This document shows positions 18,772-24,040 of a DNA stretch of 64,000 bases, in pieces. The stretch spans positions 248,001 through 312,000 of the forward strand of contig NZ_JAVFVS010000013.1 of the NCBI RefSeq assembly GCF_030929605.1, read 5' to 3'. The notes under the pieces are model-generated. The model was not told where the DNA came from and did not search any database. It saw only the letters and a program-made list of their open reading frames with translations. Source of the stretch: Flavobacterium sp. LHD-80 (GTDB lineage: Bacteria > Bacteroidota > Bacteroidia > Flavobacteriales > Flavobacteriaceae). The position numbers and the translations under genes were made by a program. Numbering within the stretch: the stretch's first letter is position 1; each line of letters begins with the position of its first letter.

Positions 18772-18806
18772 TTATTTTTAATTGATTTATAACCAAATAC
18801 CACATC

Positions 18807-19193
18807 ATGAACGGAAATTTACTCTTACGAATTGCAGTTTCGATTATTCTTCTCACGCATTCTGTTTTCGGAATGTTCAATAACGGCATTAACGATTTCG
18901 GGAATTTGTATTTAAACCAAATTGGTTTTGCGCCTTTTGGTGTTTTCTTGGCTTGGAGCATTAAATTATCTCACGTTATTGCAGCTGTACTTCTTTTGCT
19001 AAATAAATATGTTAAACTAGCAGGTTTTGTAACCATTTTTGTTTTAATAATGGGTATTATTCTCGTTCATTTTCAAGAAGGCTGGTTTGTTGTTGGCGGA
19101 GGAAGAAACGGCGTTGAATATAACTTTTTGTTGATTGTAGTTTTACTAGCAATTATGTTCCCGAATGGTTTTAAGAAAGTACAATCAAATTAA
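18807..19193 (+). CDS. DoxX-like small membrane protein
   Basis: A 128-aa protein with four predicted transmembrane helices (about 5-25, 45-68, 70-90 and 103-120) and the polar segment FQEGWFVVGGGRNGVEYN between helices 3 and 4, a pattern common in DoxX-family proteins. The DoxX name comes from a thiosulfate:quinone oxidoreductase subunit, but most members have no known function. The DUF3667 gene follows 9 nt later and is probably co-transcribed. Confidence 0.7.
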   Translation: MNGNLLLRIAVSIILLTHSVFGMFNNGINDFGNLYLNQIGFAPFGVFLAWSIKLSHVIAAVLLLLNKYVKLAGFVTIFVLIMGIILVHFQEGWFVVGGGRNGVEYNFLLIVVLLAIMFPNGFKKVQSN

Positions 19194-19202
19194 AATATCA
19201 TT

Positions 19203-19931
19203 ATGGAAATTCTTTGTAAAAATTGTCATCATATCTTTACTGGCCATTATTGCAGCAACTGCGGACAACCTGCCGCAACTCATAAAATAAACCTTCATTT
19301 TTTATGGCACGATATTCAGCATGGCTTATTGCATTTTGATAAAGGAATTACCTATTCTTTAAAACAGCTTTTTACAAGGCCGGGTAATTCTGTACGCGAA
19401 TTTATTGAAGGAAAACGTGTCAGGCATTTTAAACCACTTTCATTGGTTGTAGTTTTGGCAACGCTTTACGGAGTGCTATATCATTATTTTGATATTAATA
19501 CGTTTCCAGATTCATCGGAAAAAACGCTAGATTATCATGAAATCAATGAGTGGATGGCAACTCATTTTTCTTGGGTAACGATTGCTACAATTCCTATTTA
19601 TACCATTGGAACTTATATTGTTTTTAGAAAACAGGGGTATAATTATGTTGAGTTTTTCGTTTTAAATACATTTAAAGCATCTCAAAGACTCTTTGTACAA
19701 ATCCTGACGTTTCCAATATTGCTTTATTTAAATGGCACACCGAATATTCAAAAATTTTCATCGGTAACTTATTTTATCGGACTTGTATTAATATTCTGGA
19801 CGAATATTCAATTTTTTAATAAGATGTCAAAAACAAAAGCATTCTTTTTAAGCATATTAAGTCACATCATATTTCTAATTTGCTTTTTAATAATCACTGC
19901 CATTGTGATGCTTATTTTAGGAAAACTGTAA
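19203..19931 (+). CDS. DUF3667 membrane protein with N-terminal zinc ribbon
   Basis: A 242-aa protein. Four cysteines form a zinc-ribbon pattern (C4xxC7 and C18xxC21: CKNCHHIFTGHYCSNCG). The DUF3667 core follows (YSLKQLFTRPGNSVREFIEGKRVRHFKPLSLVVV). Four to five transmembrane helices cover residues about 80-240. The family is common in Bacteroidetes and of unknown function. The zinc ribbon would face the cytosol. Confidence 0.85.
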   Translation: MEILCKNCHHIFTGHYCSNCGQPAATHKINLHFLWHDIQHGLLHFDKGITYSLKQLFTRPGNSVREFIEGKRVRHFKPLSLVVVLATLYGVLYHYFDINTFPDSSEKTLDYHEINEWMATHFSWVTIATIPIYTIGTYIVFRKQGYNYVEFFVLNTFKASQRLFVQILTFPILLYLNGTPNIQKFSSVTYFIGLVLIFWTNIQFFNKMSKTKAFFLSILSHIIFLICFLIITAIVMLILGKL

Positions 19932-19953
19932 ACCTAAATATTAAGTTTATAAT

Positions 19954-19990
19954 AAAAAAAAAAGGTTCAGTGTTTACTGAACCTTTTTTA
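19954..19990. terminator. Palindromic terminator, copy A
   Basis: GGTTCAGTGTTTACTGAACC is flanked by A and T runs, giving a bidirectional terminator after the DUF3667 gene. A near-identical hairpin lies at 20701-20736 with the loop sequence inverted. Both belong to the 399-bp direct repeat. Confidence 0.85.
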
Positions 19991-20362
19991 TGTGAATTAA
20001 TAATTACCGAGATATATTATTTTTTCTTTACTTTTTTAGTTTTATAGTATTTACGATACTTCGGATACGTTACAGCACCAATTACTGCAATTGTTGCCAT
20101 TGAATAGTAAATCCAATTTAGAGAATGCGCCTCTCCACTTGCGTAGGAATGCAGACCAACTAAGTGGAAATTTACTCCATAATAAGTAAACAAAATCGAA
20201 ATAAAAGCAAACATCGTCATTAAATTAAAGAACCATTTTCCGCGTAAAGCTGGAACAAAACGAGCGTGAATCACAAACGCATAAATCATAATCGAGATTA
20301 AAGCCCAAGTTTCTTTTGGATCCCATCCCCAGTAACGCCCCCAGCTTTCATTTGCCCATTGT
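19964..20362. repeat. 399-bp direct repeat, copy A (ccsA 3' end)
   Basis: This copy aligns without gaps to 20709-21107 at a constant offset of 745. By eye the last 76 bp (20287-20362) are identical to 21032-21107. About 25 substitutions fall within the preceding ~270 bp, and the first ~85 bp around the stop codon are almost identical. Homology stops abruptly after 20362, apart from a short CTAAGAAG match. Confidence 0.9.
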
Positions 20363-20415
20363 ATCTCTAAGAAGCATAATATTTTTAAAAATTCTGATTT
20401 TATAAAAAATAACAC
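20017..20415 (-). pseudogene. Displaced 3' fragment of a ccsA gene
   Basis: This frame encodes the last ~115 residues of CcsA, including the haem-handling WGRYWGWDPKETW segment, and differs from the intact copy at only about five residues despite about 25 base changes. The 17-20 residues at its N-terminus come from unrelated sequence and begin with GTG. It lacks all upstream CcsA helices and the whole ResB part, so it is very unlikely to work alone. The mostly synonymous differences show that this tail diverged while it was part of a functional gene. It may be the displaced original end of the neighbouring gene. Confidence 0.8.
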
Positions 20416-20469
20416 AGATTTATCGTATAATTTAACGTTTTTTTAATTTAAAATTAATAATATATTTCT

Positions 20470-20477
20470 TACATTTG
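20470..20477 (+). promoter_or_regulatory. -7 promoter element of the tiny transcription unit
   Basis: TACATTTG is a full match to TAnnTTTG, 51 nt before the first small ATG. No good TTG lies at -33, so the element stands alone. Confidence 0.5.
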
Positions 20478-20528
20478 TACCTAGAAAGTTTCTGCAGAAA
20501 GCATTTTGTTCAAATTAATTAAAAAATT

Positions 20529-20591
20529 ATGAATTTAGAAGAGTATAAGACTCGAAGAGAAAGGAGGTATTTATATGAATTGGTTCGCTGA
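20529..20591 (+). CDS. Candidate 20-aa leader peptide
   Basis: ATG at 20529 gives MNLEEYKTRRERRYLYELVR and a TGA stop. It is Arg-rich and overlaps the second small ORF by 17 nt, and its AGA-GAA-AGG-AGG codons form the Shine-Dalgarno of that ORF. This arrangement suggests translational coupling or a leader peptide. No homologue is known to me. Confidence 0.35.
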   Translation: MNLEEYKTRRERRYLYELVR

Positions 20592-20619
20592 ATTATTTGC
20601 TGCATTAGCTGGAATTTAA
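20569..20619 (+). CDS. Candidate 14-aa hydrophobic peptide with strong Shine-Dalgarno (ORF 20575-20619)
   Basis: ATG at 20575 gives MNWFAELFAALAGI and TAA. It is preceded by AGGAGG with a 7-nt spacer, an ideal Shine-Dalgarno. Flavobacterial ribosomes rarely use such sites because the anti-SD of 16S rRNA is occluded, so the site stands out. The peptide is amphipathic and could be membrane-active or simply regulatory. The coordinates given include the upstream spacer; the coding bases are 20575-20619. Confidence 0.35.
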   Translation: MYMNWFAELFAALAGI

Positions 20620-20644
20620 TCCAAAGCAAGCAGAATTAAAAATT

Positions 20645-20669
20645 AAAGCCACTTTTATAGTGGCTTTTT
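20645..20669 (+). terminator. Terminator of the tiny transcription unit
   Basis: AAAGCCAC (20645-20652) pairs with GTGGCTTT (20660-20667) around a 7-nt loop, with T residues following. It ends a transcript of about 190 nt begun at the -7 element near 20470. Confidence 0.8.
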
Positions 20670-20700
20670 ATTTGATATATAGCCCAGACTTAATGTCAAT

Positions 20701-20736
20701 AAAAAAAAGGTTCAGTAAACACTGAACCTTTTTTAT
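20701..20736. terminator. Palindromic terminator, copy B, of the ccsBA gene
   Basis: GGTTCAGTAAACACTGAACC with A and T runs on both sides ends the minus-strand ccsBA gene. It is the counterpart of the hairpin at 19954-19990, differing only in loop orientation. Confidence 0.85.
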
Positions 20737-21107
20737 GTGAATTAATAATTACCGAGATATATTATTTTTTCTTTACTTTTTTAGTTTTATAGTATTTACG
20801 ATATTTCGGATATGTTACAGCTCCAATTAAAGTAATTGTTCCTAATGAATAGTAAATCCAATTTAGAGAATGCGCCTCACCGCTTGCATATGAATGCAGA
20901 CCAACCAAATGGAAATTTACTCCGTAGTAGGTAAACAAAATCGAAATAAAAGCGAACATCGTCATTAAATTGAAGAACCATTTTCCGCGTAAGGCTGGTA
21001 CAAAACGAGCGTGAATAACAAACGCGTAAACCATAATCGAGATTAAAGCCCAAGTTTCTTTTGGATCCCATCCCCAGTAACGCCCCCAGCTTTCATTTGC
21101 CCATTGT
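20709..21107. repeat. 399-bp direct repeat, copy B (3' end of intact ccsBA)
   Basis: This is the partner of 19964-20362. It forms the true 3' end of the ccsBA reading frame plus the untranslated tail and terminator. Confidence 0.9.
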
Positions 21108-23980
21108 CCTCCTAAGAAGTTTCCAATAGTCAGCATGATCAAACCGATAGTTATAGACATTTCGTTGATATAAGTAATCTCTTTAATATTAAGTTCCATT
21201 TTAGCTTTGTTTTTCTCTGTTGTAAAGAAAATTAATACTAATGCAACAAAACCTAAAATCATTCCTAATGCAGTTGGACCATAACTTGCTACAATAACCG
21301 CAACGTGAATCATTAACCAATATGAATTAAGAACGGGCTGTAAATTTGCAATTTCTGGATCAATCCAATTGGCGTTAGCTGCCATAAAAATCATCGCTGT
21401 CACAAATGCTGCCGAAGCTACCGTTAATTTTGATTTTCTATCAAATGCCAATCCGAAGAACATTGTTGACCAAGCAACATAAACAATTGCTTCATAAGCA
21501 TTACTCCAAGGTGCATGGCCTGAAATGTACCAACGTGCAATTAATGTTATTGTATGAAGTACAAATATTAAACCTATCAATATATGGAAACCATTTACAG
21601 TAATTCGTAACCATTTTTTATCGAAAAATATACTGAAAAGGGTAAAAATCAACATAAAGATCCCTGAAAGAGAATACCAATAAAACATTTTTGGTAAAAT
21701 ATTATAGGTATTATAAGCAACCTCTAGATCAATTTTTTGTTCACTTGGGCGTACTTTGCTTCCAAATTTTTTCTGAAAACCGTTGATACTTTCTAGTAAT
21801 TGATCTGCCGTATCCCACTTTTTAGAAATCGAGCCATTATTCAAGGCGCTAAAATATAAAGGCAAAATTTGCTTAACATAGGTAGAATCCATGCCTTTTA
21901 AACCGGCATGATCTAATTCCAGATATGAGATCCATTTATTATTTGGATCATTCGGGATTGGGAATATTCTCAAAATACTTCCGCTTAAAGCCGATTCTAA
22001 CAAGTTTACTTTTTTATCAGCTTCTATAAAATCTTTCTCAAATTGATTTGGGTTTCCTGCTTTATAAGCGGCATCTAAGTAAGGAGAAAGTTTATAATTT
22101 CCATTTTCATCAAAGAACTTTACAAAAGGTGCCAATTTCATCCCCTTTTCAATACCAATGATTTTACGAATACTATCATCTTTTGTATTAAGATAAATGA
22201 TAGGAACTTGTATCCAAACCTGAGCGTATTGTGTCATTGACAAAAATACCTGATCAGAATTCATTCCATTATATGTATCACTTTGGCTTACTTTTCGAAG
22301 TAATTCAGATGAAAAAGTATTAATCGGTTTCATTCTTCCTCCCGCGTCTTGAATAATCAAACGGCCAAATTTAGCTGCATGTGCTTCTGGAGCTTTATAG
22401 ATTGTCAATAACGAATCCAATTGTTTTTTGCTCGGCGGCGCTACAACGTGATTGGCGTGGTCATTTGGATCTGCAGTATGATTATGATCGTGTTCATGCG
22501 AGTGTACATGAGGATTTTGTTGTGCAAAACCGCTTAAACTCAACATTAACACTAAAATCGTTATTAGTTTTTCTTTCTTCTTTTTAACGCTTTCAAGTTT
22601 ACGTTTCAAATCTCCAAAACGAGAATGCTTTGTAAACATAATTGCCATTAAACCAATGTATAACAGAAAATATCCAAAATAAGTAATGTTAGTTCCCCAG
22701 AAATCGTGATTTACAGATAATACAGTTCCTTTTTCATCTGGATCAAATGAAGACTGGAAAAAACGAAATCCTTTATGATCTAAAACGTGATTCATATATA
22801 TGTCTGCATCAAAAGTTTCTGTAGAATCCTGAACAGTAACTTTACTTTTAAAAGCAGAATAACTTTTCTCTGTTCCAGGGTATTTGTCAGCAATGAAATC
22901 ATTTAATCTTACTTTAAAAGGCAATACATAAGCCTTGCTTCCAAAGAATAAACTGTATTCGATCTTTCCTATTTTTACCGTCTGAGGTTCCCCAACACTT
23001 CCTTTCGAACCCATTAAGCGAACTTCTTTTTCTTGACCGTCAGCTTTAATTTTTACTACTAAAGCATCAGTGTGTGATTTGGCTTTAAAATCTTTATTTG
23101 ACTCATAATCAATAACTCCTTTTACAGCTGGATCAGGGAAAACGATACGAATATCACCAATGCTGTACAAAGAACGCATCATTAAAGGCTGTACGTTATC
23201 TTTAGTTACAGTTCCTTTTAATTTGTCGGCCATTCTCATGAATTCTCCTTCAAATGGAGTCTGAATCGTATATTTTTCTCCAGTTGTATTAATATTGATG
23301 GCGCCGTCAGTCTGTTTATTTAAAGCAAATAAAACGTTATGAATGTTTTGAACTTCACCTTCTTTCAAGTAATGTTCTTCACGTCCGCCTGCTCCTGCTT
23401 CAACTAATTTTAAATAAAGAGTTCCTTTTGGGTCTGGTTTTATAATTTCTTTTGCTCCCATAATGTAGTTGACATAACTAACCTCAAAAGGAGTTTCGTC
23501 AAATTTTCCTGAAAGTGTAAAATCATTATTTGTAACTGGTGAAAGCAGAAGGCTTTTATCAAAAACTCTTCTTCTCGGCTGACCTTTATATTCTCCGTCA
23601 GCAAAAACTGTGATGAATGTTTTATCCGAATAAATTTGATTTTCTGCCGCTCCTTCGCGAATTGGCATCATTCCTTCATAACTGATATAACGTGTAATAA
23701 AAGCTCCTAAAATGATAAAAACAAAGGCAATGTGAAGTAAAAAAGTAGCCCATTTTTCTTTTTTAAGTAATTGGTAACGTTTGATGTTTCCAAAGAAATT
23801 AAGCATGAAAACTGCCATTATAGCTTCAAACCACCAAGTATTGTAGATTAAAATTCTGGCTGTATCAGTATTGTATTTACTTTCGATAAAAGTTCCAACA
23901 CCCATTGCAATTGCGAATGTTAAAAAAAGAACGGCCATTAAGCGTGTAGAAAACAAAAAAGAGAATATTTTTTTATCCAT
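20762..23980 (-). CDS. ccsA: CcsBA-type cytochrome c synthase (ResB-CcsA fusion)
   Basis: I start at 23980 (1072 aa, MDKKIFSFLFSTRLM). A longer frame to 24040 would have its promoter inside the coding region. The N-terminal half is ResB-like: three early helices, a large periplasmic domain and a closing helix near 450. The C-terminal half is CcsA-like, with about eight helices, the tryptophan-rich haem-handling motif WGRYWGWDPKETWAL and conserved His residues. The fusion exports haem and attaches it to CxxCH apocytochromes (System II). Between the halves lies a signal-like helix (about 470-487) followed by a His-rich stretch (HVHSHEHDHNH) near 490, which may bind haem or metal. Confidence 0.93.
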   Translation of the reverse strand: MDKKIFSFLFSTRLMAVLFLTFAIAMGVGTFIESKYNTDTARILIYNTWWFEAIMAVFMLNFFGNIKRYQLLKKEKWATFLLHIAFVFIILGAFITRYISYEGMMPIREGAAENQIYSDKTFITVFADGEYKGQPRRRVFDKSLLLSPVTNNDFTLSGKFDETPFEVSYVNYIMGAKEIIKPDPKGTLYLKLVEAGAGGREEHYLKEGEVQNIHNVLFALNKQTDGAININTTGEKYTIQTPFEGEFMRMADKLKGTVTKDNVQPLMMRSLYSIGDIRIVFPDPAVKGVIDYESNKDFKAKSHTDALVVKIKADGQEKEVRLMGSKGSVGEPQTVKIGKIEYSLFFGSKAYVLPFKVRLNDFIADKYPGTEKSYSAFKSKVTVQDSTETFDADIYMNHVLDHKGFRFFQSSFDPDEKGTVLSVNHDFWGTNITYFGYFLLYIGLMAIMFTKHSRFGDLKRKLESVKKKKEKLITILVLMLSLSGFAQQNPHVHSHEHDHNHTADPNDHANHVVAPPSKKQLDSLLTIYKAPEAHAAKFGRLIIQDAGGRMKPINTFSSELLRKVSQSDTYNGMNSDQVFLSMTQYAQVWIQVPIIYLNTKDDSIRKIIGIEKGMKLAPFVKFFDENGNYKLSPYLDAAYKAGNPNQFEKDFIEADKKVNLLESALSGSILRIFPIPNDPNNKWISYLELDHAGLKGMDSTYVKQILPLYFSALNNGSISKKWDTADQLLESINGFQKKFGSKVRPSEQKIDLEVAYNTYNILPKMFYWYSLSGIFMLIFTLFSIFFDKKWLRITVNGFHILIGLIFVLHTITLIARWYISGHAPWSNAYEAIVYVAWSTMFFGLAFDRKSKLTVASAAFVTAMIFMAANANWIDPEIANLQPVLNSYWLMIHVAVIVASYGPTALGMILGFVALVLIFFTTEKNKAKMELNIKEITYINEMSITIGLIMLTIGNFLGGQWANESWGRYWGWDPKETWALISIMVYAFVIHARFVPALRGKWFFNLMTMFAFISILFTYYGVNFHLVGLHSYASGEAHSLNWIYYSLGTITLIGAVTYPKYRKYYKTKKVKKK

Positions 23981-24011
23981 TTTTGAGGAATTACATTGTA
24001 TAAAAGTGCCA

Positions 24012-24040
24012 CAAAAGTACTTAAAAATGTTGAGTTCCAA
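24012..24040 (-). promoter_or_regulatory. Promoter of ccsBA
   Basis: On the minus strand TTG (24038-24040), an 18-nt spacer and TACTTTTG (24012-24019) match the Bacteroidetes promoter. Its position inside the longest possible frame is the reason for choosing the start at 23980. Confidence 0.7.

Follow-up and report, generated by a model that had tools for sequence, protein, structure and literature searches.

A displaced ccsA 3' end next to a candidate 14-codon peptide gene in Flavobacterium sp. LHD-80, compatible with a one-sided import from another Flavobacterium

The window (the whole 64,000-nucleotide stretch analysed, to which all positions refer) carries an intact ccsBA gene, a truncated second copy of the ccsA 3' end, an insert that separates the two and a convergent neighbour gene. 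The insert contains a candidate peptide gene. The features of the locus are the following:

19203..19931 (+): neighbour gene (DUF3667, Pfam PF12412), convergent with ccsBA and forming the resident setting of the orphan tail
19958..19989 (-): terminator belonging to the orphan copy; its loop reads TGTTTA on the plus strand and is flipped relative to the other copy
20017..20362 (-): orphan ccsA 3' end, resident-like, 114 codons and stop; weak homology continues to 20374
20363..20374 (no strand): junction, four mismatched bases and then residual CTAAGAAG in common with ccsA (copy alignment)
20375..20469 (no strand): AT-rich spacer (base content taken over 20363-20485)
20470..20477 (+): TACATTTG box, candidate promoter element, fits TAnnTTTG
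20489..20500 (+): TTTCTGCAGAAA palindrome in the leader, 10-bp core retained in Flavobacterium sp. DG2-3
20558..20568 (+): extended Shine-Dalgarno AGAAAGGAGGT, 11 nt, identical in DG2-3
20575..20619 (+): 14-codon open reading frame MNWFAELFAALAGI, DG2-3 counterpart MGWLAELFAALAGI
20645..20669 (+): terminator of the peptide gene
20703..20734 (-): terminator of intact ccsBA, loop TAAACA on the plus strand, predicted from the paired copy at offset 745 and absent from the terminator scan list
20762..24040 (-): intact ccsBA, a ResB and CcsA fusion of 1092 codons (Pfam ResB and Cytochrom_C_asm)
20804..21031 (-): divergent middle of the intact tail, between identical blocks (copy alignment)
21341..22240 (-): ccsBA tract resembling another Flavobacterium clade (genomes G103, G289, G121, G235 and G218) at 82 of 103 informative sites

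The ccsA 3' end is carried by two gap-free direct repeats of 399 bp (19964-20362 and 20709-21107, offset 745), exactly where a sequence-only reading of this DNA had placed them. The left repeat is a truncated orphan end, whose frame is open and which has a terminator of its own, the right repeat is the terminus of intact ccsBA, and 346 bp of insert separate the orphan tail from the intact copy. A DNA search within the genome matched copy 2 to copy 1 at 93% (E = 4.9e-169), and no third long match to the ccsA tail was found among the best 40 of 70 candidates. Across 19956-20362, the copies differ by 29 mismatches, 25 of them coding and 4 corresponding to the inversion of the terminator loop (TGTTTA vs TAAACA). 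At the codon level, the coding differences comprise 18 synonymous and 7 non-synonymous nucleotides, which lead to 5 residue changes. The distal 76 bp (20287-20362) are identical in both copies, as are 83 bp around the stop codon (19976-20058). The alignment thus agrees with what the reading had estimated by eye: an identical 76-bp block, about 25 differences with about five residue changes, and near-identity around the stop. Almost all coding differences (24 of 25) fall in columns that are variable among 45 relatives, and these 24 all lie within the 228 bp of 20059-20286 (P about 5e-5), so the identical ends flanking a divergent middle exceed chance. Both orientations of the terminator loop are also found in relatives, one in Flavobacterium sp. 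ASV13 and one in F. resistens; the flip is thus not peculiar to this genome.

Starting from the neighbour gene, we reached the locus in 21 named relatives. A single ccsA end was observed in 19 of them, showing that the single-ended state is normal and that the empty site anticipated by the sequence-only reading does exist; the other two loci, one interrupted by a contig end before ccsA and one from a distant Arcicella, are uninformative. Two full-length copies, as expected of a decayed tandem paralogue, were not found in these relatives. If the neighbour gene terminates at the equal locus position in every species, the gap between it and ccsA in the 19 single-ended loci is about 64-97 bp in 14, about 225 bp in one, 2.7-2.9 kb in three and about 490 bp in DG2-3. 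The three wide gaps, in F. saccharophilum, LC2016-12 and F. psychroterrae, contain genes of similar layout. That of F. saccharophilum (L127 6808-9362) encodes an ArsR-type regulator, a DUF6428 protein, a protein without Pfam match and an SBF transporter, the gene of which is also present in the other two loci (L129 and L131). No recombinase was found among the Pfam hits of this cargo, and the ccsA tail is not duplicated there either. Cargo in this gap is thus found in other lineages as well. Among 398 genomes of the genus, searched with the two best candidates per genome, 376 have a match to the orphan tail. Among the matches listed, only our genome and G186 have two; those of G186, a genome listed with 6% contamination, lie on different contigs and score identically. 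No second genome with two adjacent ccsA tails was found in this search, nor, consequently, the full element with an integrase between two ccsA copies that the reading had envisaged.

Homology to ccsA breaks at 20362. After four differing bases, CTAAGAAG (20367-20374, 8 bp) matches ccsA in register. The four differences convert the GG preceding QWANES to EI, which indicates that they arose at or after the break; the junction is known from a draft assembly of 27 contigs. No long homologue of the spacer was found among the listed matches, in the same genome or in the 398 genus genomes, for which limited candidates were scored. Likewise, the 346-bp insert has no other long match in its own genome among the best 40 of 95 candidates. 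The DNA searches of the 398 genomes scored one or two candidates per genome, with which a diverged insert could be missed. Apart from the short extension of the orphan, the insert has no frame of at least 60 aa, and no recombinase was detected by Pfam among seven proteins tested (five neighbours, the orphan and ccsBA).

The sequence-only reading had likened this arrangement to e14 in E. coli icd, where the prophage supplies a new icd end and displaces the 163-bp old end (PMC6379469). The layout upholds the comparison, with a diverged end on the intact gene and a resident-like end past the insert, but the mechanism does not follow, as neither an integrase nor a second genome with this layout was found. 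An e14-like site-specific element in the ccsA 3' end, surviving as a remnant or as a satellite mobilised in trans, would account for the new end on the intact gene and the old end beyond. Its crossover would lie in the WGWDPKETW block, and the 76-bp identical block is at the right place, where each of the 45 relatives differs from our sequence at at least 2 sites. However, the unit has no integrase, and the larger inserts read in the gap of relatives are a cargo operon without duplicated tail. Moreover, weak homology continues beyond the block and the copies are also identical in the noncoding stretch at the opposite end, which argues against a crossover confined to the 76 bp, as the reading had proposed. 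With a 346-bp insert devoid of integrase and no other tandem layout seen in the 398 genomes (two best candidates per genome), a site-specific e14-like element is not supported, and we consider it very improbable.

To which lineage does each of the two tails belong? The orphan tail is nearest to ASV13 (94.8%), then to F. resistens (93.4%); the corresponding values for the intact tail are 91.6% and 89.6%. The orphan differs from ASV13 by 17 synonymous changes and 1 non-synonymous change, and the intact tail by 23 and 6. The orphan thus looks like the resident gene end, and its 17 to 1 ratio suggests that it probably served as a gene end until recently. ASV13, F. resistens, F. daemonense and F. 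denitrificans form one supported clade (99/98) with both tails, within which the branching is not firm. AU tests on the tail tree rejected neither sister tails (p = 0.47), nor the orphan with ASV13, nor the orphan with ASV13 and F. resistens (p 0.34-0.47), so the tail tree cannot name the donor. Closest-sister tails, which the reading had counted against its own proposal, are therefore among the topologies allowed by the test. The DUF3667 neighbour gene is 86.6% identical to that of F. resistens and 88% to that of another relative (G108). Over 18800-19950, G053 and G108 remain near 86-89%, and G390, elsewhere among the closest relatives, falls to 73-80%, as if it had undergone an import of its own.

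The rest of ccsBA was compared by sliding identities, and at informative sites defined as those separating five resident-clade genomes from five genomes of the other clade. In the three 600-bp windows starting at 21201-22001, identity is 77-86% to resident relatives and 84-91% to the other clade, the last window being about equal. Both flanks of the 21341-22240 tract are resident-like, at 26 of 32 informative sites on one side (16/19 in 20762-21107 and 10/13 in 21108-21340) and at 90 of 104 on the other (22241-24040). We also considered that intact ccsBA came wholly from a G103-like donor and rejected it, because this finer mapping confines the other-clade type to 21341-22240. A mosaic ccsBA facing a resident-like orphan and left gene marks the intact gene with the insert, on these sequence comparisons, as the atypical side. 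F. daemonense (L119) has part of the 21341-22240 tract at 94-96%, which points either to repeated exchange or to two types of allele.

The insert contains a peptide gene that does not appear in the sequence-only description. The whole unit spans 20470-20669 and its counterpart in DG2-3 lies at L135 6929-7097. It begins with TACATTTG, which fits the Bacteroidota -7 box TAnnTTTG and has a putative promoter role. The order of the elements is the same in DG2-3: palindrome core, identical Shine-Dalgarno, MGWLAELFAALAGI and an inverted repeat with a T run. The DG2-3 gene lies between the neighbour gene and ccsA, downstream of ccsA and in equal orientation, and the tail is not duplicated. Six codons differ between the two ORFs, four synonymously and two with a residue change; the ORF has no indel and the leader has several. 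With two sequences only, this is good but small evidence that the MNWFAELFAALAGI ORF is a coding gene. An overlapping 20-codon upstream frame, MNLEEYKTRRERRYLYELVR (from 20529), was rejected as a gene since it is not kept in DG2-3. The peptide is hydrophobic and its helical moment exceeds that of about 99% of shuffles for the window sequence and 95% for DG2-3, which fits a helix at the membrane surface but proves nothing. Folding of the transcript is no better than that of shuffles (z -0.02), and Rfam gave matches only below curated scores (7 up to E = 1).

DG2-3 provided the only relative of the peptide that we found, and the gene is present in one copy per genome in both. A degenerate pattern retrieved only our own genome among 398 genomes of the genus (up to 3 mismatches) and among 249 of the family (up to 2 mismatches), while 150 relatives yielded our genome and two 3-mismatch matches; these sets overlap and all include our genome. 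Both 3-mismatch matches were judged to be chance, since one crosses a stop and the other, WLPELFAVLG in a 46-codon frame, has no preceding Shine-Dalgarno. In viral contigs, two peptide patterns had 0 matches, a pattern of Shine-Dalgarno plus start retrieved 25 stretches, none with the peptide, and a pattern of palindrome plus Shine-Dalgarno retrieved 11, none with such a peptide after the Shine-Dalgarno. The plasmid search for the gene gave no match, and the phage search nothing beyond 30 nt shared with five Enterococcus phage records. No such peptide gene was found in the open-access papers searched on Shine-Dalgarno use and small proteins in the phylum.

The most unusual element of the unit is its Shine-Dalgarno. 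According to PMC9976891, the anti-Shine-Dalgarno is hidden in Bacteroidia ribosomes, and in Flavobacteriales an exceptionally strong Shine-Dalgarno is typically limited to rpsU, with pairing energies of -14 to -21 kcal/mol; in the survey of 200 Flavobacteriales described there, most genomes have exactly one such gene, rpsU in F. johnsoniae. We calculated pairing energies of -18.8 kcal/mol for the peptide gene, -18.4 for its DG2-3 counterpart and -22.2 for rpsU of the same genome, using ViennaRNA and an assumed 16S tail that may not be the genome's own. With 11 nt and -18.8 kcal/mol, the peptide gene falls within the range of the rpsU class (9-13 bp, about -14 to -21 kcal/mol), although the energies are not strictly comparable since ViennaRNA differs from the program of PMC9976891. 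The strongest of 63 window ORFs of at least 100 codons, counted from ATG starts in all frames and including some that are not genes, reached -6.9. The motif AAAGGAGG followed by ATG at 3-9 nt is not enriched, with 19 sites in the genome vs 23 in the reversed control. These sites are located inside open frames of at least 160 aa in 16 of 19 cases, and one, within a 729-codon frame, pairs at -19.7, stronger than the peptide gene. Among the three sites outside long frames, the peptide gene pairs strongest. A 14-codon ORF would probably slip past a screen of annotated genes. The insert may be a gene that moves horizontally and encodes a membrane-active peptide of 14 residues; its extended Shine-Dalgarno would place it under bS21-lacking ribosomes, as a second target of specialised-ribosome control after rpsU. 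We put this forward tentatively and regard it as rather doubtful.

For the scar itself, we favour, with some reserve, a one-sided import from another Flavobacterium without any dedicated mobile element, which we hold to be somewhat probable. The incoming fragment would have carried the 3' part of ccsA, its terminator and the tiny peptide gene just downstream, in the layout now seen in DG2-3. It would have recombined homologously within ccsBA on the right side, and its left side would have been joined illegitimately within the resident ccsA, at about 20362-20374. Such an event would keep ccsBA whole, strand the resident 3' end as an orphan and add the peptide gene. Seen directly are the repeats, the resident-like orphan near ASV13, the mosaic intact gene, the relatives with one ccsA end and the DG2-3 peptide gene, downstream of ccsA without duplication; from these we infer in which direction the DNA moved, that one event was involved and that homology-facilitated illegitimate recombination (HFIR) was the route. 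The 0 recombinases in five neighbours and the recombinase-less cargo without tail duplication in three species also count for import. On the homologous side, the type of ccsBA changes near 21340 and 22240, which does not fix the exact crossover point; on the illegitimate side, the end of ccsA homology at 20362 and the 8-bp residual match to 20374 are seen from the recipient side.

Several observations speak against this import. The intact tail and the orphan are about equally close to DG2-3 (85.5 vs 85.2%), so DG2-3 is not the immediate donor; its layout fits but its tail is not the nearest one, and donor DNA was not found. Neither the tail ends nor the noncoding stretch differ between the copies, and sister tails are unrejected, which implies that the donor was very close in those parts or that conversion followed. 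In addition, resident-like sequence (21108-21340) lies between the foreign tract and the insert, so that the tract may stem from an event of its own. Transformation in Bacillus subtilis is described as leaving patchy donor tracts (PMC13344027); in the literature on Flavobacterium transformation, we found nothing directly relevant.

The roles of donor and recipient could also be swapped. The peptide gene would then be resident next to ccsA, and the neighbour gene with a ccsA tail would have been imported from a lineage without peptide gene, by homology on the left and illegitimately at 20362-20374. The DG2-3 peptide gene does occupy the gap without an orphan, and the last 120 coding bases of the orphan are 98% like ASV13. 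However, several positions of the noncoding DNA beside the orphan are not as in ASV13. Moreover, the left gene and the orphan resemble resident relatives about as closely as usual, the intact side being the atypical one, and we consider this mirror image unlikely. A duplication within the genome, for instance by a circle bearing ccsA tail and peptide gene that inserted through a single crossover, followed by a homologous import overwriting the middle of the intact tail, would explain the identical ends including noncoding DNA and the unrejected sister tails, in a ccsBA that is recombining anyway. Yet it requires a second event and a circular or tandem intermediate with the 346 bp, which have no other long match in the genome among the candidates scored; we find it quite unlikely.

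The import that we favour would make the scar an instance of tiny-gene gain through homology on one side, without a mobile element, and would show how a prophage attachment site can be imitated by a recombination scar. The duplication itself is nothing out of the ordinary for recombination and adds one more case to a known type. Of more interest, and of more weight than the scar, is the peptide gene, with its strong Shine-Dalgarno that is unusual for Flavobacteriales. If the peptide is translated by bS21-lacking ribosomes, its gene could serve as a small second reporter for bS21 control, and the question becomes why a hydrophobic peptide is made while bS21 is short.

Three known systems resemble parts of this locus. 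HFIR with one homologous and one illegitimate end is described in competent bacteria (PMC3240628), and the ends proposed here are of that form; in contrast, the present case is a natural scar, with the donor, the direction and how many events took place deduced from it. As in e14 and icd, a new 3' end is supplied and the old one displaced, here at ccsA, but e14 is a 15.2-kb prophage (PMC6379469) and our insert is 346 bp long without recombinase. Finally, the peptide gene is comparable to rpsU, the gene of bS21 autoregulation in F. johnsoniae, in its 11 nt complementary to the 16S tail and in an energy near that of the genome's own rpsU. It differs in encoding an unrelated 14-aa peptide, for which bS21-dependent control is putative.
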